NCBI RefSeq assembly: GCF_002234675.1
Contig: NC_019870.2
Location: 186,001 to 250,000, forward strand
Origin: Oryzias latipes
Taxonomy: Eukaryota; Chordata; Actinopteri; Beloniformes; Adrianichthyidae
Reading direction: 5' to 3'
DNA: 64,000 nucleotides
Numbering within the stretch: position 1 is the stretch's first letter; every line of letters starts with the position of its first letter. Both the position numbers and the translations under genes were made by a program. Positions 21,344 to 55,988 of the stretch are shown here, in pieces. Under the pieces are notes generated by a model. The model did no database searches, had not been told where the DNA came from, and saw only the letters and a program-made list of their open reading frames with translations.

Positions 21344-21447
21344 ACGGAACGAGCTTAATGCTGTTGCCAGACAGGTGTGGTGGTTCTGTTCAAACCGTTG
21401 GACCATGGCTGCAGCTGGAGCTCCCTTACAGCCGCTGTCTTGTGCAG
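21344..21447 (+). CDS. giant ZP-N/mucin-like secreted protein, exon 3 (ZP-N-like module, second half)
   Basis: The acceptor TTGTCTCTGCAG ends at 21343 and the donor GTGCAG/GTAACC follows 21447. The 104-bp exon goes from phase 1 to phase 0, matching exon 4, which starts in phase 0. In this frame it encodes residues 74-108 with LPDRCGGSV (Cys85) and LQLELPYSRCLV (Cys105). The pattern CG-x-S-V ... PY-x-x-C-x-V is one I associate with ZP-N-like modules of many fish extracellular proteins. The intron before it is only 176 bp. A different frame across the same DNA is also open, but it breaks the phase with neighbouring exons and lacks the cysteine pattern. Confidence 0.7.
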
Positions 21448-24614: not shown

Positions 24615-24683
24615 GTGAGAAGGCTCCAAAATATGATTGACAGGAAAACCTATGGGAAAAGCTAACAGCTGTATGTCTTGCAG
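24615..24683 (+). other. 69-bp minimal intron (intron 4)
   Basis: GTGAGA donor, GCTAAC branch-site-like motif at 24661-24666, TCTTGCAG acceptor. It is near the lower size limit of vertebrate introns and typical of compact fish genes. It contains an in-frame TAA, so it must be removed for exons 4 and 5 to join. Confidence 0.88.
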
Positions 24684-27600
24684 GACTCACTTCTTGAAAT
24701 AATTTATTTGGACTCTGACGGCGAAATGTCAACGATTTTGGTGCCGTGTTTCACTGCTGCCAAGAGAGGTATGGGGACTCAACATCCAAAAGCTTTGGGG
24801 GGACAAGATCAACCGAATGTGACCATTGATACCCCATCTACCAAGGATCCACTTAGTCCATCAGTTGCAGACCTGAAATCAAGCAAAAGCCTCAAAATGT
24901 TTTCAACCATCATAACTGATGTTTTGACAGCCACTACCTTTCCACAGGAAAACACCAAATATACAAGTTCAGGCAGTGATGTTTCAAACGCAAACCAAAC
25001 AACAACTAACATCACTGCTGCTCCTCCTAACATAAGAGTCCAAAGCAGAACCCCTGTGATATCAAGTGCTACCACTCATCTTGACACCCTGAAGAAACTG
25101 GAAGTTTTCCTGCCTGATGCTTCTGTCATCACTGCTAGCACTAACTCTGCGACTCCCAGCCCCATCTTTAAAAACCAAACAGACCATCTGAAATCTACAT
25201 TTAATTCAAAAGCTGCCATTACATCATCAACTACCAATGACAAAACAGAGTTAATAACAGAAACCATAACGCAAACAACCATCTTTAAGGTAACAAGTGA
25301 CATAGAAGACCCCAACACCACTCCTAAAACCAAGACTGCAAGAGATGCTCTGATTAAAACAAACGAAGTTACCTACACACCCCCCTCTATGACTGCATTC
25401 CCCTATACAGCAAGCACTCTGAATGAAGGCATAGATGATTACAATTTCAGTACAGATTCAAGGAAATTCACAGGAGACTCTAACACCATCAGTCATGTTC
25501 TAAGTCCATCTATACCAATTTTTACAATGAGTCAAGCTGCATCTATGCACCAAAATGGTCTGCATACTGCAAAAGCTTCACGGGCTAAAACAAAGCCTAA
25601 GAACGTTCTTGAAACTCTTTCTAAAAACACTCCTACAACTGTCATGGAAACTGGATCTGTGAATGAGTCGTTAACATACTTAAGAAGCTCCAAACCTGCA
25701 CACAACACCTCCCCAACCAGTTCTACTCATGACCTGGATCTAGCAAGTAATTCGTCAAAAACCACTGTACTTTTAGCGACTGATACAGATAGTCTCAGTC
25801 AAAATGCAACACTGACTCCTGACACACCTACTCAAAATCAAAGTTCTGCTACTTCCAATTGGACTGTCAACACATTTAAAAGTGCTGCTTCTATCACTCA
25901 TGAAACATTAAGTGACACTCCCCAAACCACCACAGATCCCCAAACAAATTCAGCTTTGATTATGTCCTCCACAGTGCTTACCAAAACCAATGACACTGCG
26001 GCATTCTCTGGACTTGCTGAAAATTCAAAAGGTGAAATCCCAAGGGACATAAAGGATTTGTCAACAGATATGTTTCCCAGCAGTATTACAGACGTCACAT
26101 CCACTGACATGTCAGTTACATCCTCGTTTCATAAAACATCAATAGACTCAGTGTTCAACGCTACACTAGCCAACACGGTCAGTGGAACGCAAAACACCAC
26201 CACACCCACTTTAATAACAGCCACCTCACAACCAACTACCCCACTTGAAAACTGGACGTCAAAAACACACCCAACCAGTTCTACTGATGATCTGAATCTG
26301 GCCAGTGATACTGCACACACCACTGTTCTTTTAGACACATTTAAAAGCCCAGAAGCTGGCAAAAGATCAGAAATCAATTTCCCAGCTTTCCTTACCACAC
26401 GACACGACAGCACACACCCAACAAGTGTTACGCAAGTATACAAGAAAAGCACAGATGTTTCTGTCACAGAAAGAAACTATCAAGGATTGGCTGCAACAAA
26501 AGATAGTAGTTTATTGAGCAGTCGGTTTCCGGATCTCATGGTTAGCACTTCCGATAAAGCGACTACATCAACTGATGACCATTTAAGTAGTACTGGTCTG
26601 ACAACCTCCTCTTTGCCAAATGCCAGGCCTAATGTACTTATTTCCACCACATTTGATTCAGGGCAAAGTACCGATTCTCTCAGTTCCCCCAGTGCAACCA
26701 GAATAATACACAACAAAACCATTGGTGGCCCAACAATATCTACTGACACCCCAGTAAAAATCACAGCTCGCACAAACACAGGCTCTGATTCTAAAAACTT
26801 GTTACCAACCACAACCAGTCAGAGTTGGTTGTCAAGTACTACCTCTGATATTACAACCTTCAATAATCCAAGTGCCTTCACAAACAACTGGACAACCAAC
26901 AACATTCAAAGCACTTTGAAATCTGAACTGAAAGCCACCACTGACATTCCAATCACCACCAACAAGCAGCTTCTTTCACCCAAAGCAAACCAGACCACCA
27001 GCAATGCATTGATTATCACCCCTGCTACTGACACTAAGAACTCTGTCTACCCAACAACAGCAATATTAAGGGAGACAACCAGTATGCCTGTCACAGATGA
27101 CAATGGTTTATCTACCATGTTGTATGAAGGTACTCCTGCCCCTACAACTCCCCAGACAAGCAGAGCCTCCGTGCCTAAAACTACTGAACAAAACACCAAC
27201 ACGGAAGCTAAGATTTCCTCCACTTCAGTCAAAAGCACTGAAAACCCACTAATGATTGATGCCATGGCAAACCTAAAAGACACTCTTATAACCACAACAA
27301 CTGCACTTACCACTATGGCTTCCATGACTAACACTACAGGAGTAAACAGTTGGACTGATCCTTTGACTTATACTACAACACATCATTTCACAAATATCCT
27401 TAACACAAGCTCTTCTACAACAACGGGACCTCCTGAAATACCTGCTACCAGTGCCACAGTTTACTCATCTAAATCCAAAAACACCCCAATTCGGACCACA
27501 CCACTCAGCATTGGCACAAAATCACCAATAGCCACAGCTCTCGGTGATGTCAAAGGTACTGAAAATAGAAGTGCAGTCACAGAAAACCTGTTCAATAGTC

Positions 27601-30600
27601 TCCTCTCTACCTTGGCTTCTGAAACACCTATTCAAAATCAAGGTTCCGCTACCTCCAATTGGACTGTCAACACATTTAAAAGTGCAGCTTCGACCACTCA
27701 TGAAACATTAAGTGACACTCCCCAAACCACCACAGATCCCCAAACAAATTCAGCTTTGATTATGTCCTCCACAGTGCTTACCAAAACCAATGACACTGCG
27801 GCATTCTCTGGACTTGCTGAAAATTCAAAAGGTGAAATCCCATGGGACATAAAGGATTTGTCAACAGATATGTTTCCCATTAGTATTACAGACGTCACAT
27901 CCACTGACATGTCAGTTACATCCTCGTTTCATAAAACATCAATAGACTCAGTGTTCAACGCTACACTAGCCAACACGGTCAGTGGAACGCAAAACACCAC
28001 CACACCCACTTTAATAACAGCCACCTCACAACCAACTACCCCACTTGAAAACTGGACGTCAAAAACACACCCAACCAGTTCTACTGATGATCTGAATCTG
28101 GCCAGTGATACTGCACACACCACTGTTCTTTTAGACACATTTAAAAGCCCAGAAGCTGGCAAAAGATCAGAAATCAATTTCCCAGCTTTCCTTACCACAC
28201 GACACGACAGCACACACCCAACAAGTGTTACGCAAGTATACAAGAAAAGCACAGATGTTTCTGTCACAGAAAGAAACTATCAAGGATTGGCTGCAACAAA
28301 AGATAGTAGTTTATTGAGCAGTCGGTTTCCGGATCTCATGGTTAGCACTTCCGATAAAGCGATTACATCAACTGATGACCATTTAAGTAGTACTGGTCTG
28401 ACAACCTCCTCTTTGCCAAATGCCAGGCCTAATGTACTTATTTCCACCACATTTGATTCAGGGCAAAGTACCGATTCTCTCAGTTCCCCCAGTGCAACCA
28501 GAATAATACACAACAAAACCATTGGTGGCCCAACAATATCTACTGACACCCCAGTAAAAATCCCAGCTCGCACAAACACAGGCTCTGATTCTAAAAACTT
28601 GTTACCAACCACAACCAGTCAGAGTTGGTTGTCAAGTACTACCTCTGATATTACAACCTTCAATAATCCAAGTGCCTTCACAAACAACTGGACAACCAAC
28701 AACATTCAAAGCACTTTGAAATCTGAACTGAAAGCCACCACTGACATTCCAATCACCACCAACAAGCAGCTTCTTTCACCCAAAGCAAACCAGACCACCA
28801 GCAATGCATTGATTATCACCCCTGCTACTGACACTAAGAACTCTGTCTACCCAACAACAGAAATATTAAGGGAGACAACCAGTATGCCTGTCACAGATGA
28901 CAATGGTTTATCTACCATGTTGTATGAAGGTACTCCTGCCCCTACAACTCCCCAGACAAGCAGAGCCTCCGTGCCTAAAACTACTGAACAAAACACCAAC
29001 ACGGAAGCTAAGATTTCCTCCATTTCAGTCAAAAGCACTGAAAACCCACTAATGATTGATGCCATGGCAAACCTAAAAGACACTCTTATAACCACAACAA
29101 CTGCACTTACCACTATGGCTTCCATGACTAACACTACAGGAGTAAACAGTTGGACTGATCCTTTGACTTATACTACAACACATCATTTCACAAATATCCT
29201 TAACACAAGCTCTTCTACAACAACGGGACCTCCTGAAATACCTGCTACCAGTGCCACAGTTTACTCATCTAAATCCAACAACACCCCAATTCGGACCACA
29301 CCACTTAGCATTGGCACAAAATCACCAATAGCCACAGCTCTCGGTGATGTCAAAGGTACTGAAAATAGAAGTGCAGTCACAGAAAACCTGTTCAATAGTC
29401 TCCTCTCTACCTTGGCTTCTGAAACACCTATTCAAAATCAAGGTTCCGCTACCTCCAATTGGACTGTCAACACATTTAAAAGTGCAGCTTCGACCACTCA
29501 TGAAACATTAAGTGACACTCCCCAAACCACCACAGATCCCCAAACAAATTCAGCTTTGATTATGTCCTCCACAGTGCTTACCAAAACCAATGACACTGCG
29601 GCATTCTCTGGACTTACTGAAAATTCAAAAGGTGAAATCCCATGGGACATAAAGGATTTGTCAACAGATATGTTTCCCAGCAGTATTACAGACGTCACAT
29701 CCACTGACATGTCAGTTACATCCTCGTTTCATAAAACATCAATAGACTCAGTGTTCAACGCTACACTAGCCAACACGGTCAGTGGAACGCAAAACACCAC
29801 CACACCCACTTTAATAACAGCCACCTCACAACCAACTACCCCACTTAAAAACTGGACGTCAAAAACACACCCAACCAGTTCTACTGGTGATCTGAATCTG
29901 GCCAGTGATACTGCACACACCACTGTTCTTTTAGACACATTTAAAAGCCCAGAAGCTGGCAAAAGATCAGAAATCAATTTCCCAGCTTTCCTTACCACAC
30001 GACACGACAGCACACACCCAACAAGTGCTACGCAAGTATACAAGAAAAGCACAGATGTTTCTGTCACAGAAAGAAACTATCAAGGATTGGCTGCAACAAA
30101 AGATAGTAGTTTATTGAGCAGTCGGTTTCCGGATCTCATGGTTAGCACTTCCGATAAAGCGACTACATCAACTGATGACCATTTAAGTAGTACTGGTCTG
30201 ACAACCTCCTCTTTGCCAAATGCCAGGCCTAATGTACTTATTTCCACCACATTTGATTCAGGGCAAAGTACCGATTCTCTCAGTTCCCCCAGTGCAACCA
30301 CAATAACACACAGCAAAACCATTGGTGGCCCAACAATATCTACTGACACCCCAGTAAAAATCACAGCTCGCACAAACACAGGCTCTGATTCTAAAAACTT
30401 GTTACCAACCACAACCAGTCAGAGTTGGTTGTCAAGTACTACCTCTGATATTACAACCTTCAATAATCCAAGTGCCTTCACAAACAACTGGACAACCAAC
30501 AACATTCAAAGCACTTTGAAATCTGAACCGAAAGCCACCACTGACATTCCAATCACCACCAACAAGCAGCTTCTTTCACCCAAAGCAAACCAGACTACCA

Positions 30601-33600
30601 GCAATGCATTGATTATCACCCCTGCTACTGACACTAAGAACTCTGTCTACCCAACAACTGCAATATTAAGGGAGACAACCAGTATGCCTGTCACAGATGA
30701 CAATGGTTTATCTACCATGTTGTATGAAGGTACTCCTGCCCCTACAACTCCCCAGACAAGCAGAGCCTCCGTGCCTAAAACTACTGAACAAAACACCAAC
30801 ACGGAAGCTAAGATTTCCTCCACTTCAGTCAAAAGCACTGAAAACCCACTAATGATTGATGCCATGGCAAACCTAAAAGACACTCTTATAACCACAACAA
30901 CTGCACTTACCACTATGGCTTCCATGACTAACACTACAGGAGTAAACAGTTGGACTGATCCTTTGACTTATACTACAACACATCATTTCACAAATATCCT
31001 TAACACAAGCTCTTCTACAACAACGGGACCTCCTGAAATACCTGCTACCAGTGCCACAGTTTACTCATCTAAATCCAACAACACCCCAATTCGGACCACA
31101 CCACTCAGCATTGGCACAAAATCACCAATAGCCACAGCTCTCGGTGATGTCAAAGGTACTGAAAATAGAAGTGCAGTCACAGAAAACCTGTTCAATAGTC
31201 TCCTCTCTACCTTGGCTTCTGAAACACCTATTCAAAATCAAGGTTCCGCTACCTCCAATTGGACTGTCAACACATTTAAAAGTGCAGCTTCGACCACTCA
31301 TGAAACATTAAGTGACACTCCCCAAACCACCACAGATCCCCAAACAAATTCAGCTTTGATTATGTCCTCCACAGTGCTTACCAAAACCAATGACACTGCG
31401 GCATTCTCTGGACTTGCTGAAAATTCAAAAGGTGAAATCCCAAGGGACATAAAGGATTTGTCAACAGACATGCATCCCAGCAGTATTACAGATGTCACAT
31501 CCACTGACATGTCAGTTACATCCTCGTTTCATAAAACATCAATAGACTCAGTGTTCAACGCTACACTAGCCAACACGATCAGTGGAACGCAAAACACCAC
31601 CACACCCACTTTAATAACAGCCACCTCACAACCAACTACCCCACTTGAAAACTGGACGTCAAAAACACACCCAACCAGTTCTACTGATGATCTGAATCTG
31701 GCCAGTGATACTGCACACACCACTGTTCTTTTAGACACATTTAAAAGCCCAGAAGCTGGCAAAAGATCAGAAATCAATTTCCCAGCTTTCCTTACCACAC
31801 GACACGACAGCACACACCCAACAAGTGTTACGCAAGTATACAAGAAAAGCACAGATGTTTCTGTCACAGAAAGAAACTATCAAGGATTGGCTGCAACAAA
31901 AGATAGTAGTTTATTGAGCAGTCGGTTTCCGGATCTCATGGTTAGCACTTCCGATAAAGCGACTACATCAACTGATGACCATTTAAGTAGTACTGGTCTG
32001 ACAACCTCCTCTTTGCCAAATGCCAGGCCTAATGTACTTATTTCCACCACATTTGATTCAGGGCAAAGTACCGATTCTCTCAGTTCCCCCAGTGCAACCA
32101 CAATAACACACAGCAAAACCATTGGTGGCCCAACAATATCTACTGACACCCCAGTAAAAATCACAGCTCGCACAAACACAGGCTCTGATTCTAAAAACTT
32201 GTTACCAACCACAACCAGTCAGAGTTGGTTGTCAAGTACTACCTCTGATATTACAACCTTCAATAATCCAAGTGCCTTCACAAACAACTGGACAACCAAC
32301 AACATTCAAAGCACTTTGAAATCTGAACTGAAAGCCACCACTGACATTCCAATCACCACCAACAAGCAGCTTCTTTCACCCAAAGCAAACCAGACTACCA
32401 GTGATGCATTGATTATCACCCCTGCTACTGACACTAAGAACTCTGTCTACCCAACAACTGCAATATTAAGGGAGACAACCAGTATGCCTGTCACAGATGA
32501 CAATGGTTTATCTACCATGTTGTATGAAGGTACTCCTGCCCCTACAACTCCCCAGACAAGCAGAGCCTCCGTGCCTAAAACTACTGAACAAAACACCAAC
32601 ACGGAAGCTAAGATTTCCTCCACTTCAGTCAAAAGCACTGAAAACCCACTAATGATTGATGCCATGGCAAACCTAAAAGACACTCTTATAACCACAACAA
32701 CTGCACTTACCACTATGGCTTCCATGACTAACACTACAGGAGTAAACAGTTGGACTGATCCTTTGACTTATACTACAACACATCATTTCACAAATATCCT
32801 TAACACAAGCTCTTCTACAACAACGGGACCTCCTGAAATACCTGCTACCAGTGCCACAGTTTACTCATCTAAATCCAACAACACCCCAATTCGGACCACA
32901 CCACTCAGCATTGGCACAAAATCACCAATAGCCACAGCTCTCGGTGATGTCAAAGGTACTGAAAATAGAAGTGCAGTCACAGAAAACCTGTTCAATAGTC
33001 TCCTCTCTACCTTGGCTTCTGAAACACCTATTCAAAATCAAGGTTCCGCTACCTCCAATTGGACTGTCAACACATTTAAAAGTGCAGCTTCGACCACTCA
33101 TGAAACATTAAGTGACACTCCCCAAACCACCACAGATCCCCAAACAAATTCAGCTTTGATTATGTCCTCCACAGTGCTTACCAAAACCAATGACACTGCG
33201 GCATTCTCTGGACTTGCTGAAAATTCAAAAGGTGAAATCCCATGGGACATAAAGGATTTGTCAACAGATATGTTTCCCATTAGTATTACAGACGTCACAT
33301 CCACTGACATGTCAGTTACATCCTCGTTTCATAAAACATCAATAGACTCAGTGTTCAACGCTACACTAGCCAACACGGTCAGTGGAACGCAAAACACCAC
33401 CACACCCACTTTAATAACAGCCACCTCACAACCAACTACCCCACTTGAAAACTGGACGTCAAAAACACACCCAACCAGTTCTACTGATGATCTGAATCTG
33501 GCCAGTGATACTGCACACACCACTGTTCTTTTAGACACATTTAAAAGCCCAGAAGCTGGCAAAAGATCAGAAATCAATTTCCCAGCTTTCCTTACCACAC

Positions 33601-48600: not shown

Positions 48601-51600
48601 GTGATGCATTGATTATCACCCCTGCTACTGACACTAAGAACTCTGTCTACCCAACAACTGCAATATTAAGGGAGACAACCAGTATGCCTGTCACAGATGA
48701 CAATGGTTTATCTACCATGTTGTATGAAGGTACTCCTGCCCCTACAACTCCCCAGACAAGCAGAGCCTCCGTGCCTAAAACTACTGAACAAAACACCAAC
48801 ACGGAAGCTAAGATTTCCTCCATTTCAGTCAAAAGCACTGAAAACCCACTAATGATTGATGCCATGGCAAACCTAAAAGACACTCTTATAACCACAACAA
48901 CTGCACTTACCACTATGGCTTCCATGACTAACACTACAGGAGTAAACAGTTGGACTGATCCTTTGACTTATACTACAACACATCATTTCACAAATATCCT
49001 TAACACAAGCTCTTCTACAACAACGGGACCTCCTGAAATACCTGCTACCAGTGCCACAGTTTACTCATCTAAATCTACCAACACCCCAATTCGGACCACA
49101 CCACTTAGCATTGGCACAAAATCACCAATAGCCACAGCTCTCGGTGATGTCAAAGGTACTGAAAATAGAAGTGCAGTCACAGAAAACCTGTTCAATAGTC
49201 TCCTCTCTACCTTGGCTTCTGAAACACCTATTCAAAATCAAGGTTCCGCTACCTCCAATTGGACTGTCAACACATTTAAAAGTGCAGCTTCGACCACTCA
49301 TGAAACATTAAGTGACACTCCCCAAACCACCACAGATCCCCAAACAAATTCAGCTTTGATTATGTCCTCCACAGTGCTTACCAAAACCAATGACACTGCG
49401 GCATTCTCTGGACTTGCTGAAAATTCAAAAGGTGAAATCCCATGGGACATAAAGGATTTGTCAACAGACATGCATCCCAGCAGTATTACAGATGTCACAT
49501 CCACTGACATGTCAGTTACATCCTCGTTTCATAAAACATCAATAGACTCAGTGTTCAACGCTACACTAGCCAACACGGTCAGTGGAACGCAAAACACCAC
49601 CACACCCACTTTAATAACAGCCACCTCACAACCAACTACCCCACTTAAAAACTGGACGTCAAAAACACACCCAACCAGTTCTACTGGTGATCTGAATCTG
49701 GCCAGTGATACTGCACACACCACTGTTCTTTTAGACACATTTAAAAGCCCAGAAGCTGGCAAAAGATCAGAAATCAATTTCCCAGCTTTCCTTACCACAC
49801 GACACGACAGCACACACCCAACAAGTGTTACGCAAGTATACAAGAAAAGCACAGATGTTTCTGTCACAGAAAGAAACTATCAAGGATTGGCTGCAACAAA
49901 AGATAGTAGTTTATTGAGCAGTCGGTTTCCGGATCTCATGGTTAGCACTTCCGATAAAGCGATTACATCAACTGATGACCATTTAAGTAGTACTGGTCTG
50001 ACAACCTCCTCTTTGCCAAATGCCAGGCCTAATGTACTTATTTCCACCACATTTGATTCAGGGCAAAGTACCGATTCTCTCAGTTCCCCCAGTGCAACCA
50101 CAATAACACACAGCAAAACCATTGGTGGCCCAACAATATCTACTGACACCCCAGTAAAAATCACAGCTCGCACAAACACAGGCTCTGATTCTAAAGACTT
50201 GTTACCAACCACAACCAGTCAGAGTTGGTTGTCAAGTACTACCTCTGATATTACAACCTTCAATAATCCAAGTGCCTTCACAAACAACTGGACAACCAAC
50301 AACATTCAAAGCACTTTGAAACATGAACTGAAAGCCACCACTGACATTCCAATCACCACCAACAAGCAGCTTCTTTCACCCAAAGCAAACCAAACTACCA
50401 GTGATGCATTGATTATCACCCCTGCTACTGACACTAAGAACTCTGTCTACCCAACAACTGCAATATTAAGGGAGACAACCAGTATGCCTGTCACAGATGA
50501 CAATGGTTTATCTACCATGTTGTATGAAGGTACTCCTGCCCCTACAACTCCCCAGACAAGCAGAGCCTCCGTGCCTAAAACTACTGAACAAAACACCAAC
50601 ACGGAAGCTAAGATTTCCTCCATTTCAGTCAAAAGCACTGAAAACCCACTAATGATTGATGCCATGGCAAACCTAAAAGACACTCTTATAACCACAACAA
50701 CTGCACTTACCACTATGGCTTCCATGACTAACACTACAGGAGTAAACAGTTGGACTGATCCTTTGACTTATACTACAACACATCATTTCACAAATATCCT
50801 TAACACAAGCTCTTCTACAACAACGGGACCTCCTGAAATACCTGCTACCAGTGCCACAGTTTACTCATCTAAATCCAACAACACCCCAATTCGGACCACA
50901 CCACTTAGCATTGGCACAAAATCACCAATAGCCACAGCTCTCGGTGATGTCAAAGGTACTGAAAATAGAAGTGCAGTCACAGAAAACCTGTTCAATAGTC
51001 TCCTCTCTACCTTGGCTTCTGAAACACCTATTCAAAATCAAGGTTCCGCTACCTCCAATTGGACTGTCAACACATTTAAAAGTGCAGCTTCGACCACTCA
51101 TGAAACATTAAGTGACACTCCCCAAACCACCACAGATCCCCAAACAAATTCAGCTTTGATTATGTCCTCCACAGTGCTTACCAAAACCAATGACACTGCG
51201 GCATTCTCTGGACTTGCTGAAAATTCAAAAGGTGAAATCCCATGGGACATAAAGGATTTGTCAACAGACATGCATCCCAGCAGTATTACAGATGTCACAT
51301 CCACTGACATGTCAGTTACATCCTCGTTTCATAAAACATCAATAGACTCAGTGTTCAACGCTACACTAGCCAACACGGTCAGTGGAACGCAAAACACCAC
51401 CACACCCACTTTAATAACAGCCACCTCACAACCAACTACCCCACTTAAAAACTGGACGTCAAAAACACACCCAACCAGTTCTACTGGTGATCTGAATCTG
51501 GCCAGTGATACTGCACACACCACTGTTCTTTTAGACACATTTAAAAGCCCAGAAGCTGGCAAAAGATCAGAAATCAATTTCCCAGCTTTCCTTACCACAC

Positions 51601-54600
51601 GACACGACAGCACACACCCAACAAGTGTTACGCAAGTATACAAGAAAAGCACAGATGTTTCTGTCACAGAAAGAAACTATCAAGGATTGGCTGCAACAAA
51701 AGATAGTAGTTTATTGAGCAGTCGGTTTCCGGATCTCATGGTTAGCACTTCCGATAAAGCGATTACATCAACTGATGACCATTTAAGTAGTACTGGTCTG
51801 ACAACCTCCTCTTTGCCAAATGCCAGGCCTAATGTACTTATTTCCACCACATTTGATTCAGGGCAAAGTACCGATTCTCTCAGTTCCCCCAGTGCAACCA
51901 CAATAACACACAGCAAAACCATTGGTGGCCCAACAATATCTACTGACACCCCAGTAAAAATCACAGCTCGCACAAACACAGGCTCTGATTCTAAAGACTT
52001 GTTACCAACCACAACCAGTCAGAGTTGGTTGTCAAGTACTACCTCTGATATTACAACCTTCAATAATCCAAGTGCCTTCACAAACAACTGGACAACCAAC
52101 AACATTCAAAGCACTTTGAAACATGAACTGAAAGCCACCACTGACATTCCAATCACCACCAACAAGCAGCTTCTTTCACCCAAAGCAAACCAAACTACCA
52201 GTGATGCATTGATTATCACCCCTGCTACTGACACTAAGAACTCTGTCTACCCAACAACTGCAATATTAAGGGAGACAACCAGTATGCCTGTCACAGATGA
52301 CAATGGTTTATCTACCATGTTGTATGAAGGTACTCCTGCCCCTACAACTCCCCAGACAAGCAGAGCCTCCGTGCCTAAAACTACTGAACAAAACACCAAC
52401 ACGGAAGCTAAGATTTCCTCCATTTCAGTCAAAAGCACTGAAAACCCACTAATGATTGATGCCATGGCAAACCTAAAAGACACTCTTATAACCACAACAA
52501 CTGGACTTACCACTATGGCTTCCATGACTTACACTACAGGAGTAAACAGTTGGACTGATCCTTTGACTTATACTACAACACATCATTTTACAAATATCCT
52601 TAACACAAGCTCTTCTACAACAACGGGACCTCCTGAAATACCTGCTACCAGTGCCATAGTTTACTCATCTAAATCCAACAACACCCCAATTCGGACCACA
52701 CCACTCAGCATTGGCACAAAATCACCAATAGCCACAGCTCTCGGTGATGTCAAAGGTACTGAAAATAGAAGTACAGTCACAGAAAACCTGTTCAATAGTC
52801 TCCTCTCTACCTTGGCTTCTGAAACACATATTCAAAATCAAGGTTCCGCTACCTCCAATTGGACTGTCAACACATTTAAAAGTGCAGCTTCGACCACTCA
52901 TGAAACATTAAGTGACACTCCCCAAACCACCACAGATCCCCAAACAAATTCAGCTTTGATTATGTCCTCCACAGTGCTTACCAAAACCAATGACACTGCG
53001 GCATTTTCTGGACTTGCTGAAAATTCAACAGGTGAAATCCCAAGGGACATAAAGGATTTGTCAACAGACATGCATCCCAGCAGTATTACAGATGTCACAT
53101 CCACTGACATGTCAGTTACATCCTCGTTTCATAAAACATCAATAGACTCAGTGTTCAACGCTACACTAGCCAACACGATCAGTGGAACGCAAAACACCAC
53201 CTCACCCACTTTAATAACAGCCACCTCACAACCAACTACCCCCCTTGAAAACTGGACGTCAAAAACACACCCAACCAGAAAGCAGCTTCTTTCACCCAAA
53301 GCAAACCAGACTACCAGCGATGCATTGATTATCCCTCCATCCGCTATCAGTAAAATATCTGTCTACTCAGACACCAACATATTTATGCAGTTTACCACCT
53401 TGTCTCCGACCAATGAAGACTTCTTGTCTGCCATAATATACAACAGTTCTTCTATATCCACAACTCCCATTTATCAGACCTCCAGCATTTTTGGGTCTAA
53501 ACATACAGTTTCCACAAGCACGTATCTTTCAACTTCTCCCGAATCACAGCTATTGCATCTCGTTGAGGTGCATTCTTCCACTATGTCAGGACCAAATTCC
53601 CAGCCTTTTTCAAAACCAAAACCTTCAAATTTATTAAGACCGCAACCTCAACCAATTCACACGCCAAACCCTTACCGTTATCTTAAACCAAGTACCCCCG
53701 CTCCATTGAGACCTCGCCCCCAACCGACTTCAAGGCCAAAGCCTTTTCATGTTCTTGAACCAAATCTTCCCTGTTTGTCAAGACCACGACCTCAAACACC
53801 TCCTCGGCCAATGCCTTCTCCATTTCTACACCCACATCCTCCTACTATGTTAACTCCACGTCCCCAACCAGCTCCAATGCCAAACCCTTCCCCTTACATG
53901 GAGCAAAATCCTTCCACTCATTTAAGACCTTCTTTACAATTGGCTCCAATGCCAAAGCCCTCATATTATTCAGAGCCAAACTCTCACACTTGGTCAAGAC
54001 CCCGTCCACAAACGGCTTCAAGGCCAAAGCCTATCCGCTTTACAGAACAAAATCCCCCTACTAAACTAAGACCTCTTCCTCATCCTGTTACAAGGCCAAA
54101 GCCTTCCCGTTTTTCGGATCCAAATCCCCCTTCTAAATCAAGACCTGTTCCTTATCCTGTTACAAGGCCAAAGCCTTCCCGTTTTTTGGAACCACATCCC
54201 CCTTCTAAATCAAGACCTAGTCCTCATCCTGTTACAAGGCCAAAACCTTCCCGTTTCTTGGAACCACACCCCCCTTCTAAATCAAGACCTAGTCCTCATC
54301 CTGTTAAAAGGCCAAAGCCTTCCCGTTTCTTGGAACCACATCCCCCTTCTAAATCAAGACCTGTTCCTCATCCTGTTACAAGGCCAAAGCCTTCCCGTTT
54401 CTTGGAACCACAACCCCCTTCTAAATCAAGACTTAGTCCTCATCCTGTTACAAGGCCAAAGCCTTCCCGTTTCTTGGAACCACAACCCCCTTCTAAATCA
54501 AGACCTGTTCCTCATCCTGTTAAAAGGCCAAAGCCTTCCCGTTTTTTGGAACCACATCCACCTTCTAAATCAACACCTGTTCCTCATCCTGTTAAAAGGC

Positions 54601-55988
54601 CAAAGCCTTCCCGTTTCTTGGAACCACAACCCCCTTCTAAATCAAGACCTGGTCCTCATCCTGTTAAAAGGCCAAAGCCTTCCCGTTTCTTGGAACCACA
54701 ACCCCCTTCTAAATCAAGACCTGTTCCTCATCCTGTTAAAAGGCCAAAGCCTTCCCGTTTTTTGGAACCACAACCCCCTTCTAAATCAAGACTTAGTCCT
54801 CATCCTGTTACAAGGCCAAAGCCTTCCGGTTTTTTGGAACCAAATCCCCCTTCTAAATCAAGACCTAGTCCTCATCCTGTTAAAAGGCCAAAGCTTTCTC
54901 ATTTTTTGGAACCACATCCCCCTTCTAAATCAAGACCTAGTCCTCATCCTGTTACAAGGCCAAAGCCTTCACATTTTTTGGAACCAAATTACCCAATTAA
55001 ATTCAAACCTCGTCCTCATCCTCCTTCGAGACCAAATCCCTCCCGTTTTCTAAAACCAACAACTCCTACTCGGCTAAGACCTAGGCCTCTTCCCCAACCA
55101 GCTCCCATGCCAAAGCCCTCTTATTCACTGGAGCCACATCTTCCCACTCATTTAAGACCTCACCCCCAACCGGCTCAGAGGCCAGAGCCTTCCTATCATC
55201 TAGAACAAAGTCCTCCTAGACCTCATCCACAAATTGCTTCAAGACCACAGCCTTCCCATTTTTTAGAACCAAATCCCCTTACTCAGTTAAGACCTAGTCC
55301 CCAAATGGCTCCAAGACCAAAGCCATCTCTTTTCCTAGAAACAAACCCCTCACCTTTGTTAAGGCCTCATCCCAAACCAGTTCCCAGGCCAAAGCCTTCC
55401 CGTTTCTTGAAACCGAGTTCCCCCTCCCTATTAAGACCACATCTCCAACCAGCTCCAGGGCCAAAGCCTTCTCATTTCCAGGTACCAAATCCTCCCACTG
55501 TGTTAAGACAACATCCCCAGCTGGCTTCAAAACCACGGCATGTACAATTATTGGACTCAAAACCTTCCACTTTGTCAAGACCACAACCTCCCAGGTTCCT
55601 GCTCCCAAACAATCCAAACTATTCACAAGCGCGACCTTTGTCAAACTCCAAGCCCCAGCTACAAGGCCTCCTTAGACAGGAGAGTCCAAACTTATCAAAA
55701 CCTCAGCCAACCAGCTTTCATATGCCACAGCCCCCAGACTTTACCAAGCAACGAGGCTCCTTTGTTTCAAGGTTGCACCATTTTAATCTTTATAAGCCAC
55801 AACCTACAATGTTTACAAAGCCACAATATCCAGTTTTTGCCAGGCCTCAGCCTTTTAACATAATCAGGCCAAGGCCCAGAAAGGTGAATCCCTCAAGCCC
55901 ACAAAAGCCACAGTACCCTCATGTCTACAGACCACAGACTGCAGCTCTATCAAGACCAAGGAGGTTTCACATCAATGTACCCACCTGA
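24684..55988 (+). CDS. giant ZP-N/mucin-like secreted protein, exon 5 (31.3-kb mucin and Pro-rich exon)
   Basis: One uninterrupted frame of 10,434 codons from the acceptor at 24683 to TGA at 55986-55988. With exons 1-4 it predicts about 10,632 residues. Order: the end of the second N-terminal module (LLEIIYLDSDGE, Cys220); a unique Thr/Ser-rich stretch (to about residue 578); 15 repeats of 600 residues rich in Thr, Ser and Asn with many N-x-S/T sites (579-9578); a cut-down 16th unit; and a Pro/Lys/Arg-rich tail (about 9845-10632) with 24-residue repeats. Only two cysteines occur in the exon (220 and 9895). There is no transmembrane segment, von Willebrand D domain, cystine knot, SEA domain or ZP-C half, so secretion is inferred. 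Dense O-glycosylation is expected from composition. I do not recognise a named gene. The tail could suggest binding to acidic partners, which is inference. Confidence 0.9.
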   Translation, partial: DSLLEIIYLDSDGEMSTILVPCFTAAKRGMGTQHPKALGGQDQPNVTIDTPSTKDPLSPSVADLKSSKSLKMFSTIITDVLTATTFPQENTKYTSSGSDVSNANQTTTNITAAPPNIRVQSRTPVISSATTHLDTLKKLEVFLPDASVITASTNSATPSPIFKNQTDHLKSTFNSKAAITSSTTNDKTELITETITQTTIFKVTSDIEDPNTTPKTKTARDALIKTNEVTYTPPSMTAFPYTASTLNEGIDDYNFSTDSRKFTGDSNTISHVLSPSIPIFTMSQAASMHQNGLHTAKASRAKTKPKNVLETLSKNTPTTVMETGSVNESLTYLRSSKPAHNTSPTSSTHDLDLASNSSKTTVLLATDTDSLSQNATLTPDTPTQNQSSATSNWTVNTFKSAASITHETLSDTPQTTTDPQTNSALIMSSTVLTKTNDTAAFSGLAENSKGEIPRDIKDLSTDMFPSSITDVTSTDMSVTSSFHKTSIDSVFNATLANTVSGTQNTTTPTLITATSQPTTPLENWTSKTHPTSSTDDLNLASDTAHTTVLLDTFKSPEAGKRSEINFPAFLTTRHDSTHPTSVTQVYKKSTDVSVTERNYQGLAATKDSSLLSSRFPDLMVSTSDKATTSTDDHLSSTGLTTSSLPNARPNVLISTTFDSGQSTDSLSSPSATRIIHNKTIGGPTISTDTPVKITARTNTGSDSKNLLPTTTSQSWLSSTTSDITTFNNPSAFTNNWTTNNIQSTLKSELKATTDIPITTNKQLLSPKANQTTSNALIITPATDTKNSVYPTTAILRETTSMPVTDDNGLSTMLYEGTPAPTTPQTSRASVPKTTEQNTNTEAKISSTSVKSTENPLMIDAMANLKDTLITTTTALTTMASMTNTTGVNSWTDPLTYTTTHHFTNILNTSSSTTTGPPEIPATSATVYSSKSKNTPIRTTPLSIGTKSPIATALGDVKGTENRSAVTENLFNSLLSTLASETPIQNQGSATSNWTVNTFKSAASTTHETLSDTPQTTTDPQTNSALIMSSTVLTKTNDTAAFSGLAENSKGEIPWDIKDLSTDMFPISITDVTSTDMSVTSSFHKTSIDSVFNATLANTVSGTQNTTTPTLITATSQPTTPLENWTSKTHPTSSTDDLNLASDTAHTTVLLDTFKSPEAGKRSEINFPAFLTTRHDSTHPTSVTQVYKKSTDVSVTERNYQGLAATKDSSLLSSRFPDLMVSTSDKAITSTDDHLSSTGLTTSSLPNARPNVLISTTFDSGQSTDSLSSPSATRIIHNKTIGGPTISTDTPVKIPARTNTGSDSKNLLPTTTSQSWLSSTTSDITTFNNPSAFTNNWTTNNIQSTLKSELKATTDIPITTNKQLLSPKANQTTSNALIITPATDTKNSVYPTTEILRETTSMPVTDDNGLSTMLYEGTPAPTTPQTSRASVPKTTEQNTNTEAKISSISVKSTENPLMIDAMANLKDTLITTTTALTTMASMTNTTGVNSWTDPLTYTTTHHFTNILNTSSSTTTGPPEIPATSATVYSSKSNNTPIRTTPLSIGTKSPIATALGDVKGTENRSAVTENLFNSLLSTLASETPIQNQGSATSNWTVNTFKSAASTTHETLSDTPQTTTDPQTNSALIMSSTVLTKTNDTAAFSGLTENSKGEIPWDIKDLSTDMFPSSITDVTSTDMSVTSSFHKTSIDSVFNATLANTVSGTQNTTTPTLITATSQPTTPLKNWTSKTHPTSSTGDLNLASDTAHTTVLLDTFKSPEAGKRSEINFPAFLTTRHDSTHPTSATQVYKKSTDVSVTERNYQGLAATKDSSLLSSRFPDLMVSTSDKATTSTDDHLSSTGLTTSSLPNARPNVLISTTFDSGQSTDSLSSPSATTITHSKTIGGPTISTDTPVKITARTNTGSDSKNLLPTTTSQSWLSSTTSDITTFNNPSAFTNNWTTNNIQSTLKSEPKATTDIPITTNKQLLSPKANQTTSNALIITPATDTKNSVYPTTAILRETTSMPVTDDNGLSTMLYEGTPAPTTPQTSRASVPKTTEQNTNTEAKISSTSVKSTENPLMIDAMANLKDTLITTTTALTTMASMTNTTGVNSWTDPLTYTTTHHFTNILNTSSSTTTGPPEIPATSATVYSSKSNNTPIRTTPLSIGTKSPIATALGDVKGTENRSAVTENLFNSLLSTLASETPIQNQGSATSNWTVNTFKSAASTTHETLSDTPQTTTDPQTNSALIMSSTVLTKTNDTAAFSGLAENSKGEIPRDIKDLSTDMHPSSITDVTSTDMSVTSSFHKTSIDSVFNATLANTISGTQNTTTPTLITATSQPTTPLENWTSKTHPTSSTDDLNLASDTAHTTVLLDTFKSPEAGKRSEINFPAFLTTRHDSTHPTSVTQVYKKSTDVSVTERNYQGLAATKDSSLLSSRFPDLMVSTSDKATTSTDDHLSSTGLTTSSLPNARPNVLISTTFDSGQSTDSLSSPSATTITHSKTIGGPTISTDTPVKITARTNTGSDSKNLLPTTTSQSWLSSTTSDITTFNNPSAFTNNWTTNNIQSTLKSELKATTDIPITTNKQLLSPKANQTTSDALIITPATDTKNSVYPTTAILRETTSMPVTDDNGLSTMLYEGTPAPTTPQTSRASVPKTTEQNTNTEAKISSTSVKSTENPLMIDAMANLKDTLITTTTALTTMASMTNTTGVNSWTDPLTYTTTHHFTNILNTSSSTTTGPPEIPATSATVYSSKSNNTPIRTTPLSIGTKSPIATALGDVKGTENRSAVTENLFNSLLSTLASETPIQNQGSATSNWTVNTFKSAASTTHETLSDTPQTTTDPQTNSALIMSSTVLTKTNDTAAFSGLAENSKGEIPWDIKDLSTDMFPISITDVTSTDMSVTSSFHKTSIDSVFNATLANTVSGTQNTTTPTLITATSQPTTPLENWTSKTHPTSSTDDLNLASDTAHTTVLLDTFKSPEAGKRSEINFPAFLTTRHDSTHPTSVTQVYKKSTDVSVTERNYQGLAATKDSSLLSSRFPDLMVSTSDKAITSTDDHLSSTGLTTSSLPNARPNVLISTTFDSGQSTDSLSSPSATRIIHNKTIGGPTISTDTPVKITARTNTGSDSKNLLPTTTSQSWLSSTTSDITTFNNPSAFTNNWTTNNIQSTLKSELKATTDIPITTNKQLLSPKANQTTSNALIITPATDTKNSVYPTTAILRETTSMPVTDDNGLSTMLYEGTPAPTTPQTSRASVPKTTEQNTNTEAKISSISVKSTENPLMIDAMANLKDTLITTTTALTTMASMTNTTGVNSWTDPLTYTTTHHFTNILNTSSSTTTGPPEIPATSATVYSSKSNNTPIRTTPLSIGTKSPIATALGDVKGTENRSAVTENLFNSLLSTLASETPIQNQGSATSNWTVNTFKSAASTTHETLSDTPQTTTDPQTNSALIMSSTVLTKTNDTAAFSGLTENSKGEIPWDIKDLSTDMFPSSITDVTSTDMSVTSSFHKTSIDSVFNATLANTVSGTQNTTTPTLITATSQPTTPLKNWTSKTHPTSSTGDLNLASDTAHTTVLLDTFKSPEAGKRSEINFPAFLTTRHDSTHPTSATQVYKKSTDVSVTERNYQGLAATKDSSLLSSRFPDLMVSTSDKATTSTDDHLSSTGLTTSSLPNARPNVLISTTFDSGQSTDSLSSPSATTITHSKTIGGPTISTDTPVKITPRTNTGSDSKNLLPTTTSQSWLSSTTSDITTFNNPSAFTNNWTTNNIQSTLKSELKATTDIPITTNKQLLSPKANQTTSNALIITPATDTKNSVYPTTAILRETTSMPVTDDNGLSTMLYEGTPAPTTPQTSRASVPKTTEQNTNTEAKISSTSVKSTENPLMIDAMANLKDTLITTTTALTTMASMTNTTGVNSWTDPLTYTTTHHFTNILNTSSSTTTGPPEIPATSATVYSSKSNNTPIRTTPLSIGTKSPIATALGDVKGTENRSAVTENLFNSLLSTLASETPIQNQGSATSNWTVNTFKSAASTTHETLSDTPQTTTDPQTNSALIMSSTVLTKTNDTAAFSGLAENSKGEIPRDIKDLSTDMHPSSITDVTSTDMSVTSSFHKTSIDSVFNATLANTISGTQNTTTPTLITATSQPTTPLENWTSKTHPTSSTDDLNLASDTAHTTVLLDTFKSPEAGKRSEINFPAFLTTRHDSTHPTSVTQVYKKSTDVSVTERNYQGLAATKDSSLLSSRFPDLMVSTSDKATTSTDDHLSSTGLTTSSLPNARPNVLISTTFDSGQSTDSLSSPSATTITHSKTIGGPTISTDTPVKITARTNTGSDSKNLLPTTTSQSWLSSTTSDITTFNNPSAFTNNWTTNNIQSTLKSELKATTDIPITTNKQLLSPKANQTTSDALIITPATDTKNSVYPTTAILRETTSMPVTDDNGLSTMLYEGTPAPTTPQTSRASVPKTTEQNTNTEAKISSTSVKSTENPLMIDAMANLKDTLITTTTALTTMASMTNTTGVNSWTDPLTYTTTHHFTNILNTSSSTTTGPPKIPATSATVYSSKSNNTPIRTTPLSIGTKSPIATALGDVKGTENRSAVTENLFNSLLSTLASETPIQNQGSATSNWTVNTFKSAASTTHETLSDTPQTTTDPQINSALIMSSTVLTKTNDTAAFSGLTENSKGEIPWDIKDLSTDMFPISITDVTSTDMSVTSSFHKTSIDSVFNATLANTVSGTQNTTTPTLITATSQPTTPLENWTSKTHPTSSTDDLNLASDTAHTTVLLDTFKSPEAGKRSEINFPAFLTTRHDSTHPTSVTQVYKKSTDVSVTERNYQGLAATKDSSLLSSRFPDLMVSTSDKATTSTDDHLSSTGLTTSSLPNARPNVLISTTFDSGQSTDSLSSPSATTIIHNKTIGGPTISTDTPVKITARTNTGSDSKNLLPTTTSQSWLSSTTSDITTFNNPSAFTNNWTTNNIQSTLKSELKATTDIPITTNKQLLSPKANQTTSDALIITPATDTKNSVYPTTAILRETTSMPVTDDNGLSTMLYEGTPAPTTPQTSRASVPKTTEQNTNTEAKISSISVKSTENPLMIDAMANLKDTLITTTTALTTMASMTNTTGVNSWTDPLTYTTTHHFTNILNTSSSTTTGPPEIPATSATVYSSKSNNTPIRTTPLSIGTKSPIATALGDVKGTENRSTVTENLFNSPLSTLASETPIQNQGSATSNWTVNTFKSAASTTHETLSDTPQTTTDPQTNSALIMSSTVLTKTNDTAAFSGLAENSKGEIPRDIKDLSTDMHPSSITDVTSTDMSVTSSFHKTSIDSVFNATLANTISGTQNTTTPTLITATSQPTTPLENWTSKTHPTSSTDDLNLASDTAHTTVLLDTFKSPEAGKRSEINFPAFLTTRHDSTHPTSVTQVYKKSTDVSVTERNYQGLAATKDSSLLSSRFPDLMVSTSDKATTSTDDHLSSTGLTTSSLPNARPNVLISTTFDSGQSTDSLSSPSATTITHSKTIGGPTISTDTPVKITARTNTGSDSKNLLPTTTSQSWLSSTTSDITTFNNPSAFTNNWTTNNIQSTLKSELKATTDIPITTNKQLLSPKANQTTSNALIITPATDTKNSVYPTTAILRETTSMPVTDDNGLSTMLYEGTPAPTTPQTSRASVPKTTEQNTNTEAKISSISVKSTENPLMIDAMANLKDTLITTTTALTTMASMTNTTGVNSWTDPLTYTTTHHFTNILNTSSSTTTGPPEIPATSATVYSSKSNNTPIRTTPLSIGTKSPIATALGDVKGTENRSAVTENLFNSLLSTLASETPIQNQGSATSNWTVNTFKSAASTTHETLSDTPQTTTDPQTNSALIMSSTVLTKTNDTAAFSGLAENSKGEIPRDIKDLSTDMHPSSITDVTSTDMSVTSSFHKTSIDSVFNATLANTVSGTQNTTTPTLITATSQPTTPLENWTSKTHPTSSTDDLNLASDTAHTTVLLDTFKSPEAGKRSEINFPAFLTTRHDSTHPTSVTQVYKKSTDVSVTERNYQGLAATKDSSLLSSRFPDLMVSTSDKATTSTDDHLSSTGLTTSSLPNARPNVLISTTFDSGQSTDSLSSPSATTITHSKTIGGPTISTDTPVKITARTNTGSDSKNLLPTTTSQSWLSSTTSDITTFNNPSAFTNNWTTNNIQSTLKSELKATTDIPITTNKQLLSPKANQTTSDALIITPATDTKNSVYPTTAILRETTSMPVTDDNGLSTMLYEGTPAPTTPQTSRASVPKTTEQNTNTEAKISSISVKSTENPLMIDAMANLKDTLITTTTALTTMASMTNTTGVNSWTDPLTYTTTHHFTNILNTSSSTTTGPPEIPATSATVYSSKSNNTPIRTTPLSIGTKSPIATALGDVKGTENRSAVTENLFNSLLSTLASETPIQNQGSATSNWTVNTFKSAASTTHETLSDTPQTTTDPQTNSALIMSSTVLTKTNDTAAFSGLAENSKGEIPRDIKDLSTDMHPSSITDVTSTDMSVTSSFHKTSIDSVFNATLANTVSGTQNTTTPTLITATSQPTTPLENWTSKTHPTSSTDDLNLASDTAHTTVLLDTFKSPEAGKRSEINFPAFLTTRHDSTHPTSVTQVYKKSTDVSVTERNYQGLAATKDSSLLSSRFPDLMVSTSDKAITSTDDHLSSTGLTTSSLPNARPNVLISTTFDSGQSTDSLSSPSATTITHSKTIGGPTISTDTPVKITARTNTGSDSKNLLPTTTSQSWLSSTTSDITTFNNPSAFTNNWTTNNIQSTLKSELKATTDIPITTNKQLLSPKANQTTSDALIITPATDTKNSVYPTTAILRETTSMPVTDDNGLSTMLYEGTPAPTTPQTSRASVPKTTEQNTNTEAKISSISVKSTENPLMIDAMANLKDTLITTTTALTTMASMTNTTGVNSWTDPLTYTTTHHFTNILNTSSSTTTGPPEIPATSATVYSSKSNNTPIRTTPLSIGTKSPIATALGDVKGTENRSAVTENLFNSLLSTLASETPIQNQGSATSNWTVNTFKSAASTTHETLSDTPQTTTDPQTNSALIMSSTVLTKTNDTAAFSGLAENSKGEIPRDIKDLSTDMFPSSITDVTSTDMSVTSSFHKTSIDSVFNATLANTVSGTQNTTTPTLITATSQPTTPLENWTSKTHPTSSTGDLNLASDTAHITVLLDTFKSPEAGKRSEINFPAFLTTRHDSTHPTSVTQVYKKSTDVSVTERNYQGLAATKDSSLLSSRFPDLMVSTSDKATTSTDDHLSSTGLTTSSLPNARPNVLISTTFDSGQSTDSLSSPSATTITHSKTIGGPTISTDTPVKITARTNTGSDSKNLLPTTTSQSWLSSTTSDITTFNNPSAFTNNWTTNNIQSTLKSELKATTDIPITTNKQLLSPKANQTTSDALIITPATDTKDSVYPTTAILRETTSMPVTDDNGLSTMLYEGTPAPTTPQTSRASVPKTTEQNTNTEAKISSISVKSTENPLMIDAMANLKDTLITTTTALTTMASMTNTTGVNSWTDPLTYTTTHHFTNILNTSSSTTTGPPEIPATSATVYSSKSNNTPIRTTPLSIGTKSPIATALGDVKGTENRSAVTENLFNSLLSTLASETPIQNQGSATSNWTVNTFKSAASTTHETLSDTPQTTTDPQTNSALIMSSTVLTKTNDTAAFSGLAENSKGEIPRDIKDLSTDMHPSSITDVTSTDMSVTSSFHKTSIDSVFNATLANTISGTQNTTTPTLITATSQPTTPLENWTSKTHPTSSTDDLNLASDTAHTTVLLDTFKSPEAGKRSEINFPAFLTTRHDSTHPTSVTQVYKKSTDVSVTERNYQGLAATKDSSLLSSRFPDLMVSTSDKATTSTDDHLSSTGLTTSSLPNARPNVLISTTFDSGQSTDSLSSPSATTITHSKTIGGPTISTDTPVKITARTNTGSDSKNLLPTTTSQSWLSSTTSDITTFNNPSAFTNNWTTNNIQSTLKSELKATTDIPITTNKQLLSPKANQTTSDALIITPATDTKNSVYPTTAILRETTSMPVTDDNGLSTMLYEGTPAPTTPQTSRASVPKTTEQNTNTEAKISSISVKSTENPLMIDAMANLKDTLITTTTALTTMASMTNTTGVNSWTDPLTYTTTHHFTNILNTSSSTTTGPPEIPATSATVYSSKSTNTPIRTTPLSIGTKSPIATALGDVKGTENRSAVTENLFNSLLSTLASETPIQNQGSATSNWTVNTFKSAASTTHETLSDTPQTTTDPQTNSALIMSSTVLTKTNDTAAFSGLAENSKGEIPWDIKDLSTDMHPSSITDVTSTDMSVTSSFHKTSIDSVFNATLANTVSGTQNTTTPTLITATSQPTTPLKNWTSKTHPTSSTGDLNLASDTAHTTVLLDTFKSPEAGKRSEINFPAFLTTRHDSTHPTSVTQVYKKSTDVSVTERNYQGLAATKDSSLLSSRFPDLMVSTSDKAITSTDDHLSSTGLTTSSLPNARPNVLISTTFDSGQSTDSLSSPSATTITHSKTIGGPTISTDTPVKITARTNTGSDSKDLLPTTTSQSWLSSTTSDITTFNNPSAFTNNWTTNNIQSTLKHELKATTDIPITTNKQLLSPKANQTTSDALIITPATDTKNSVYPTTAILRETTSMPVTDDNGLSTMLYEGTPAPTTPQTSRASVPKTTEQNTNTEAKISSISVKSTENPLMIDAMANLKDTLITTTTALTTMASMTNTTGVNSWTDPLTYTTTHHFTNILNTSSSTTTGPPEIPATSATVYSSKSNNTPIRTTPLSIGTKSPIATALGDVKGTENRSAVTENLFNSLLSTLASETPIQNQGSATSNWTVNTFKSAASTTHETLSDTPQTTTDPQTNSALIMSSTVLTKTNDTAAFSGLAENSKGEIPWDIKDLSTDMHPSSITDVTSTDMSVTSSFHKTSIDSVFNATLANTVSGTQNTTTPTLITATSQPTTPLKNWTSKTHPTSSTGDLNLASDTAHTTVLLDTFKSPEAGKRSEINFPAFLTTRHDSTHPTSVTQVYKKSTDVSVTERNYQGLAATKDSSLLSSRFPDLMVSTSDKAITSTDDHLSSTGLTTSSLPNARPNVLISTTFDSGQSTDSLSSPSATTITHSKTIGGPTISTDTPVKITARTNTGSDSKDLLPTTTSQSWLSSTTSDITTFNNPSAFTNNWTTNNIQSTLKHELKATTDIPITTNKQLLSPKANQTTSDALIITPATDTKNSVYPTTAILRETTSMPVTDDNGLSTMLYEGTPAPTTPQTSRASVPKTTEQNTNTEAKISSISVKSTENPLMIDAMANLKDTLITTTTGLTTMASMTYTTGVNSWTDPLTYTTTHHFTNILNTSSSTTTGPPEIPATSAIVYSSKSNNTPIRTTPLSIGTKSPIATALGDVKGTENRSTVTENLFNSLLSTLASETHIQNQGSATSNWTVNTFKSAASTTHETLSDTPQTTTDPQTNSALIMSSTVLTKTNDTAAFSGLAENSTGEIPRDIKDLSTDMHPSSITDVTSTDMSVTSSFHKTSIDSVFNATLANTISGTQNTTSPTLITATSQPTTPLENWTSKTHPTRKQLLSPKANQTTSDALIIPPSAISKISVYSDTNIFMQFTTLSPTNEDFLSAIIYNSSSISTTPIYQTSSIFGSKHTVSTSTYLSTSPESQLLHLVEVHSSTMSGPNSQPFSKPKPSNLLRPQPQPIHTPNPYRYLKPSTPAPLRPRPQPTSRPKPFHVLEPNLPCLSRPRPQTPPRPMPSPFLHPHPPTMLTPRPQPAPMPNPSPYMEQNPSTHLRPSLQLAPMPKPSYYSEPNSHTWSRPRPQTASRPKPIRFTEQNPPTKLRPLPHPVTRPKPSRFSDPNPPSKSRPVPYPVTRPKPSRFLEPHPPSKSRPSPHPVTRPKPSRFLEPHPPSKSRPSPHPVKRPKPSRFLEPHPPSKSRPVPHPVTRPKPSRFLEPQPPSKSRLSPHPVTRPKPSRFLEPQPPSKSRPVPHPVKRPKPSRFLEPHPPSKSTPVPHPVKRPKPSRFLEPQPPSKSRPGPHPVKRPKPSRFLEPQPPSKSRPVPHPVKRPKPSRFLEPQPPSKSRLSPHPVTRPKPSGFLEPNPPSKSRPSPHPVKRPKLSHFLEPHPPSKSRPSPHPVTRPKPSHFLEPNYPIKFKPRPHPPSRPNPSRFLKPTTPTRLRPRPLPQPAPMPKPSYSLEPHLPTHLRPHPQPAQRPEPSYHLEQSPPRPHPQIASRPQPSHFLEPNPLTQLRPSPQMAPRPKPSLFLETNPSPLLRPHPKPVPRPKPSRFLKPSSPSLLRPHLQPAPGPKPSHFQVPNPPTVLRQHPQLASKPRHVQLLDSKPSTLSRPQPPRFLLPNNPNYSQARPLSNSKPQLQGLLRQESPNLSKPQPTSFHMPQPPDFTKQRGSFVSRLHHFNLYKPQPTMFTKPQYPVFARPQPFNIIRPRPRKVNPSSPQKPQYPHVYRPQTAALSRPRRFHINVPT
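25824..52823 (+). repeat. 15 tandem 1800-bp coding repeats (600 residues each)
   Basis: Units start at 25824 + 1800n. All 15 have exactly the same length, and no insertion or deletion was seen between them; differences are scattered single bases. Each unit runs from TPIQNQGSATSNWTVNTF, through SGLAENSKGEIP, NFPAFLTTRHDS, SSTGLTTSSLPNARPNV and KQLLSPKANQTTS, to ENLFNSLLSTLASE. Variants such as IPRDIKD/IPWDIKD, DMFPIS/DMFPSS/DMHPSS, PLENW/PLKNW and STDDL/STGDL allow individual units to be told apart. No cysteine occurs in the unit. Confidence 0.98.
52824..53620 (+). repeat. truncated 16th unit and decayed repeat edge
   Basis: The unit continues to about 53278, then 684 bp (228 codons, in frame) are missing relative to other units. 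Homology resumes at AAGCAGCTTCTTTCACCC (53280) up to GATGCATTGATTATC. After that the protein still resembles the unit faintly (IIPPSAISKISVY against IITPATDTKNSVY, then LSAIIYNSS against LSTMLYEGT), marking an old copy that escaped homogenisation. Confidence 0.85.
53622..55985 (+). repeat. Pro/Lys/Arg-rich tail with 72-bp repeats
   Basis: The reading frame changes composition sharply from Thr/Ser to Pro with Lys/Arg. The core, 54093-54956, is exactly 12 tandem 72-bp units encoding 24 residues such as RPKPSRFLEPHPPSKSRP followed by SPHPVT or VPHPVK. On both sides diverged relatives of the same motif (for example RPKPSYYSEPNSHTWSRP and RPKPSLFLETNPSPLLRP) extend it to about 25-30 units. Few acidic residues and many Lys/Arg make the tail strongly basic. 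The last residues are RRFHINVPT before the stop. Confidence 0.95.

Follow-up and report, generated by a model that had tools for sequence, protein, structure and literature searches.

A medaka gene with a terminal mucin-type repeat exon that probably holds about 31.3 kb of coding sequence

Does a very long open frame on medaka (Oryzias latipes) contig C12 belong to one giant coding exon, or is most of it an intron, as the public annotation has it? The frame lies in the window, the whole stretch of 64,000 nucleotides that was analysed (C12:186001-250000), taken from a searched genome of 734,051,031 bases in 25 contigs. On the forward strand, one frame is open from stop to stop over 10,440 codons (24666-55988); 444 and 814 stops occur in the two others of this strand. 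A preliminary description, made from the sequence alone, had proposed a frame of 10,434 codons running from a splice acceptor to TGA without a stop, and a recount gave exactly this figure. No N bases occur inside the frame. The sole gap of the window (1,000 N at 2126-3125) lies far outside it and interrupts a 28-bp minisatellite (CCACCCCCTACAGGCCTGAACAGGTACT) that spans 13 kb of the window (5-13273). Similar repeats run through much of the six-frame translations of L018, the 10 kb upstream (C12:176001-186000).

The repeats within the frame are nearly identical, so their 15 copies are not independent evidence against chance, and total length provides no basis for the argument either. A chance origin of the open frame is, however, excluded segment by segment. 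Stop expectations were obtained from first-order Markov sequences, with 300 simulations for each segment. For the unique start of the exon (384 codons) the mean expectation was 19.5 stops (minimum 8), for one repeat unit (600 codons) it was 26.4 (minimum 13) and for the tail (902 codons) 27.8 (minimum 12), and no stop was seen in any of them.

The exon is preceded by four smaller ones (Table 1), which are matched by P0002, an uncharacterized NCBI protein of medaka (LOC144996333, 721 aa) whose first 628 residues are identical to the translation of the window. The acceptor of exon 5, TGTATGTCTTGCAG/GAC, is exactly the P0002 junction of residue 198 to 199. The proposal of a coding exon beginning at 24684 was supported: P0002 uses that acceptor, the upstream exons were found, and the frame is common to an annotated protein of Oryzias melastigma. 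In a search with the spliced N-terminus, where 150 of 684 query residues were scored, P0002 matched at 100% and P0003 (O. melastigma, mucin-5AC-like, partial) at 88%; two Scomber scombrus (mackerel) proteins match the first 235 residues of P0002 at 43% and 39%. Splice sites were scored with assumed weights throughout. The donors of the four upstream introns scored 4.52, 4.46, 3.04 and 4.52 and their acceptors 4.50, 3.92, 5.79 and 3.02, the exon-5 acceptor being the weakest. The contig from which P0002 derives has 35,121,269 bases, against 30,543,476 for C12; the head of the gene has therefore apparently been seen in two assemblies. All 16 genome matches to a 772-residue query from the start of exon 5 were at this locus alone. 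With the mackerel protein P0005 as the query (86 of 758 candidates scored), the best two matches were here (E 2e-7 and 3e-7), and the other 14 of the 16 (best E 0.02) fell within the Thr-rich part of P0005.

Table 1. Features of the gene, in positions of the window
Feature	Position	Strand	Description
Exon 1, coding part	14530-14647	+	Begins MTVWVWLGWITVVWFGSALEDG, signal-peptide-like; donor GTGAGA; exact match to P0002 residues 1-39
Exon 2	21066-21167	+	P0002 residues 40-73; splice phase resolved in gene model
Exon 3	21344-21447	+	P0002 residues 74-108
Exon 4	24345-24614	+	P0002 residues 109-198; homologues in mackerel and O. melastigma
Intron 4, 69 bp	24615-24683	+	GTGAGA...TTGCAG; contains in-frame TAA
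Exon 5 (terminal), coding part	24684-55988	+	10,434 codons (24684-55985) plus TGA
Exon 5, unique start	24684-25835	+	End of cysteine head, then Thr/Ser-rich; 57% identity to P0003 over 370 aligned positions
Array	25836-53279	+	Fifteen 1,800-bp (600-aa) units, then a 444-bp partial unit
Doubtful intron of NCBI model LOC144996333	25974-53782	+	Donor ACA/GTGCTT, acceptor TTTGTCAAG/ACC; junction of P0002 residues 628 and 629
Tail, 902 codons	53280-55985	+	26% Pro, basic; fourteen 72-bp repeats at 54021-55028
Likely polyadenylation signal (AATAAA) of the terminal exon	56470-56475	+	Additional ATTAAA at 56160

Other repeats and genes lie within and around the gene. Intron 1 contains minisatellite blocks at 16649-20033 (32-bp unit, with a higher-order period of ~96-127 bp), and an AGTG tetranucleotide array occupies 21469-21858 in intron 3, ~20 bases past exon 3. 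Reverse-transcriptase-like fragments (RVT_1) were found at 59220-60128 of the window, where the score was under the curated cut-off (27.5 versus 29.6 bits), and on the minus strand of L018 (2746-3573). Downstream, the minus strand carries an exon of a short-chain dehydrogenase (adh_short) and a Glyco_transf_21 gene (window 62250-63990, L019 2605-2829 and L021 1118-1579), which we take to be hsdl2 and ugcg, respectively. An SCP2-like end in the window was read by eye, the stretch 62618-63016 being without a Pfam match.

The sole medaka annotation found for the gene, P0002, removes the array by splicing: its last 93 residues, past the jump from 25973 to 53783, are read in another frame. Taken as it stands, this would make the array an intron; the mature product would be secreted and 721 aa long, its stalk short and Thr/Ser-rich and its tail the 93 residues from the other frame. 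We regard this as unlikely, although the NCBI protein has exactly such a structure and its acceptor at 53783 is a fair one, scoring 3.51, above the exon-5 acceptor and bettered by only 25 of the 1,691 AG sites within the exon. The claimed donor, however, scores -4.36, compared with 3.04 to 4.52 for the upstream donors, and 459 of the 1,158 GT sites within the exon score better. Moreover, the whole of the claimed intron is a single open frame, and in O. melastigma the homologous unit sequence is annotated as coding in that frame. P0003 matches residues 302-493 of the unit with 54% identity over 194 positions (E 2e-60), and the sequence matched falls inside the intron claimed for medaka. This match is the strongest evidence suggesting that the unit is translated, though P0003 is itself predicted and partial.

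The 20-mer at the claimed donor occurs at 16 places, once in each of the 15 units and once in the partial unit, and a junction seen in short reads may therefore equally stem from the last copy. The array might then be translated and a splice within exon 5 be used as well, most simply from 52973 to 53783, where the intron would be 809 bp; the resulting isoform would keep the units and have the basic tail replaced by 93 other residues. Since the donor is equally weak in every copy, we consider the coexistence of both forms to be quite improbable.

The preliminary description had counted 15 long repeats and a low-complexity tail in the frame, and the array does comprise 15 full units (~25836-52835) and a partial one, followed by a tail with fourteen 72-bp repeats. 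In this one assembly, each full unit is exactly 1,800 bp, with no indels, and the mean difference between two units is 14 bases in 1,800 and the maximum 33 (~99% identity). The further claim that the passage of the frame through these repeats argues for selection was not upheld. Minor alleles at the 52 variable sites of the unit comprise 16 synonymous and 36 nonsynonymous changes and no stop, where random placement under neutrality predicts 14.9, 35.7 and 1.4, respectively, with a probability of 0.24 of obtaining no stop. In the 72-bp tail repeats there are 11 synonymous and 28 nonsynonymous changes and 0 stops, against expectations of 10.1 synonymous changes and 0.97 stops. Thus, the substitutions among copies look neutral in both the 1,800-bp array and the tail repeats and give no sign of selection on the amino acids. 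Because the copies are near-identical and differ as neutral sequence would, their intactness is weak evidence for selection, and we rejected it as a proof.

The lack of indels among the units is a little surprising if the DNA is neutral (P = 0.0055 for an assumed indel to substitution ratio of 1:10, and 0.024 at 1:14). Units 2-4 differ from units 5-7 by 4, 2 and 1 bases, pointing to the duplication of a three-unit block, as unequal crossing-over predicts. An assembly artefact by plain duplication of one contig end is unlikely, as the copies differ by substitutions; the copy number is that of one assembly. That the gene is decaying or non-expressed, with a frame open merely through recent amplification of the array, is very unlikely: chance would suffice for the lack of stops among the neutral-looking copies, but the start, the unit and the tail each lack the 19.5-27.8 stops expected of them, and the head is conserved (39-43% identity in mackerel and 88% in O. 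melastigma).

Read as coding throughout, the full gene model gives a protein of 10,632 aa with no internal stops (1.13 MDa before sugars). A head with six cysteines is followed by fifteen Thr/Ser-rich repeats of 600 aa each and by a tail that is basic and rich in Pro (pI 11.8). Of all 19-residue stretches in the model, the one starting at residue 1 is the most hydrophobic, and a simple scan of hydropathy, used in place of a dedicated predictor, found no membrane span after residue 60 (best 19-residue hydropathy 0.84). The signal-peptide-like start and the lack of such a span suggest that the product is most likely secreted. The exon-5 product is 20.7% Thr, 14.2% Ser and 8.0% Pro (43% in sum), with only 2 cysteines in 10,434 residues. 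The array is presumably O-glycosylated, and the model contains 187 N-glycosylation sequons.

The head is encoded by exons 2-4 and the first bases of exon 5, and its cysteines (at 53, 85, 105, 137, 151 and 220) are presumably disulphide-bonded. The spacing of the first four is nearly kept between medaka (32-20-32) and mackerel (32-20-34). We take this spacing to resemble that of a ZP-N domain, followed by a second one with two cysteines, and the head is possibly ZP-N-like; no Pfam model of ZP-N matched it in the locus segments or in P0002-P0005. More generally, Pfam searches returned no family for exon 4, the exon 5 start, one unit or the tail (E up to 1) and none for P0002-P0005 (E up to 10), and a VWD or SEA domain was likewise not matched in any of these. 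Of two PDB sequence searches, one gave no chain and the other a single unrelated chain at E 1.5. AlphaFold models of the head were too poor to judge its fold, with mean pLDDT values of 29.5 and 33.6, each being built from only four sequences.

MUC12 and MUC16 are tethered mucins. Mucin PTS or repeat domains usually sit in one large exon (PMC1552070; PMC13345508), and the mucin sequence of MUC12, MUC4 and MUC16 lies within one very large coding exon (PMC13345508; PMC5338267), as it probably does in medaka. With its Pro/Thr/Ser-rich tandem repeats, the medaka exon can be classed among the mucin-type repeat exons, though the head is unusual and possibly ZP-N-like. Alleles of MUC12 and MUC4 differ greatly in length, the long MUC12 alleles (up to 23,080 aa) being larger than the medaka product (PMC13345508). 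MUC4 is tethered (PMC13345508; PMC5338267), whereas the medaka model has neither a membrane span after residue 60 nor a SEA domain. The gel-forming mucins MUC2, MUC5AC, MUC5B and MUC6 are secreted, as the medaka product most likely is, and have the PTS domain in a large exon (PMC1552070). The same source gives a VWD or SEA domain as a mucin feature, and its reference list calls the large exon of MUC5B central (PMC1552070); in medaka, by contrast, no VWD or other Pfam domain was found and the array exon is terminal.

Among fish proteins, P0003 and the mackerel proteins P0004 and P0005 have a homologous cysteine head followed by Thr-rich sequence, as medaka does, and P0003 additionally has unit sequence in common with it. 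Unlike the medaka model, the three are annotated as 664, 456 and 501 aa, with P0003 marked partial. The name mucin-5AC-like probably reflects composition, given that no Pfam domain matched. A Siganus protein, P0001, matched the tail weakly (26% identity, E 2e-6), which was taken as low-complexity similarity, and it was rejected as an identity for the gene.

Identity with CIROZ (C1orf127) was considered and rejected. The neighbours at the medaka locus differ from those known for CIROZ. PF15094 (DUF4556) had no match at this locus or in P0002-P0005, and its search of the genome gave a single sub-threshold match with one stop inside (C16:11968805-11969020, L022; 16.8 bits). The medaka model has a signal-peptide-like start and a head with a possibly ZP-N-like cysteine pattern. 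In CIROZ, an N-terminal signal peptide is likely (PMC11912448), and the name implies ZP-N domains (PMC12807706).

With respect to size, the preliminary description had held that the exon would exceed the longest human coding exons. This is contradicted by a 2026 preprint, which gives human MUC12 proteins of 4,677 to 23,080 aa and sizes that span 55,233 bp; its authors regard the central exon of MUC12, as far as they know, as the largest coding exon that some humans have (PMC13345508). The idea of a record exon length for vertebrates was rejected on these grounds; 31.3 kb is very large, but it is no record. According to other reports, the largest exon of human titin, which likewise is a giant coding exon but encodes a muscle protein and not a mucin array, has 17,106 bp (PMC12198301), and MUC16 exon 3, estimated at >21 kb, does not encode the MUC16 tandem repeats (PMC5338267). 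The longest VNTR allele of MUC4 has 27,843 bp. For the medaka RefSeq annotation GCF_002234675.1, a table in PMC11090075 lists a maximum exon length of 19,832 nt, which the 31.3 kb exceeds. That table was the only useful result of a search of open-licence papers for record exons, and a similar search found no description of this gene.

The frame, the exon matches, the splice signals, the repeat structure, the composition and the homology to other fishes together argue for a medaka gene of at least five coding exons, the last of which is probably a misannotated mucin-type repeat exon with ~31.3 kb of coding sequence. From these features we infer the full-length mRNA and protein, as well as glycosylation, location, function and variation in length. 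A signal peptide and the greater part of a small head would come from four small exons, and the terminal exon would complete the head and add the long Thr/Ser-rich array and the strongly basic Pro-rich tail. The product would most likely be released into mucus or an extracellular coat. There, the hydrated array could serve as a spacer, the head could bind proteins, and the cationic tail could fasten the molecule to acidic glycans or to polyanions of another kind. The array would have grown and been homogenised by unequal crossing-over in whole units, and for this reason its length should vary among fish.

A broader proposal, which we put forward tentatively and with less than even confidence, is that the gene represents a family of giant, secreted and mucin-like teleost proteins that is as yet undescribed, with a divergent, possibly tandem ZP-N-like six-cysteine head and a cationic Pro-rich tail, lacking VWD and SEA domains, and that its medaka exon of >31 kb has been missed by annotation and is polymorphic in length. 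If the exon is translated whole, the gene would encode a very large fish protein, 27.8 kb of whose coding sequence is treated as an intron in the public annotation, and the 19,832 nt given in PMC11090075 would be too low a figure for the longest medaka RefSeq exon. It would also offer a tractable fish model for the origin and variation of very long, recently amplified mucin arrays.
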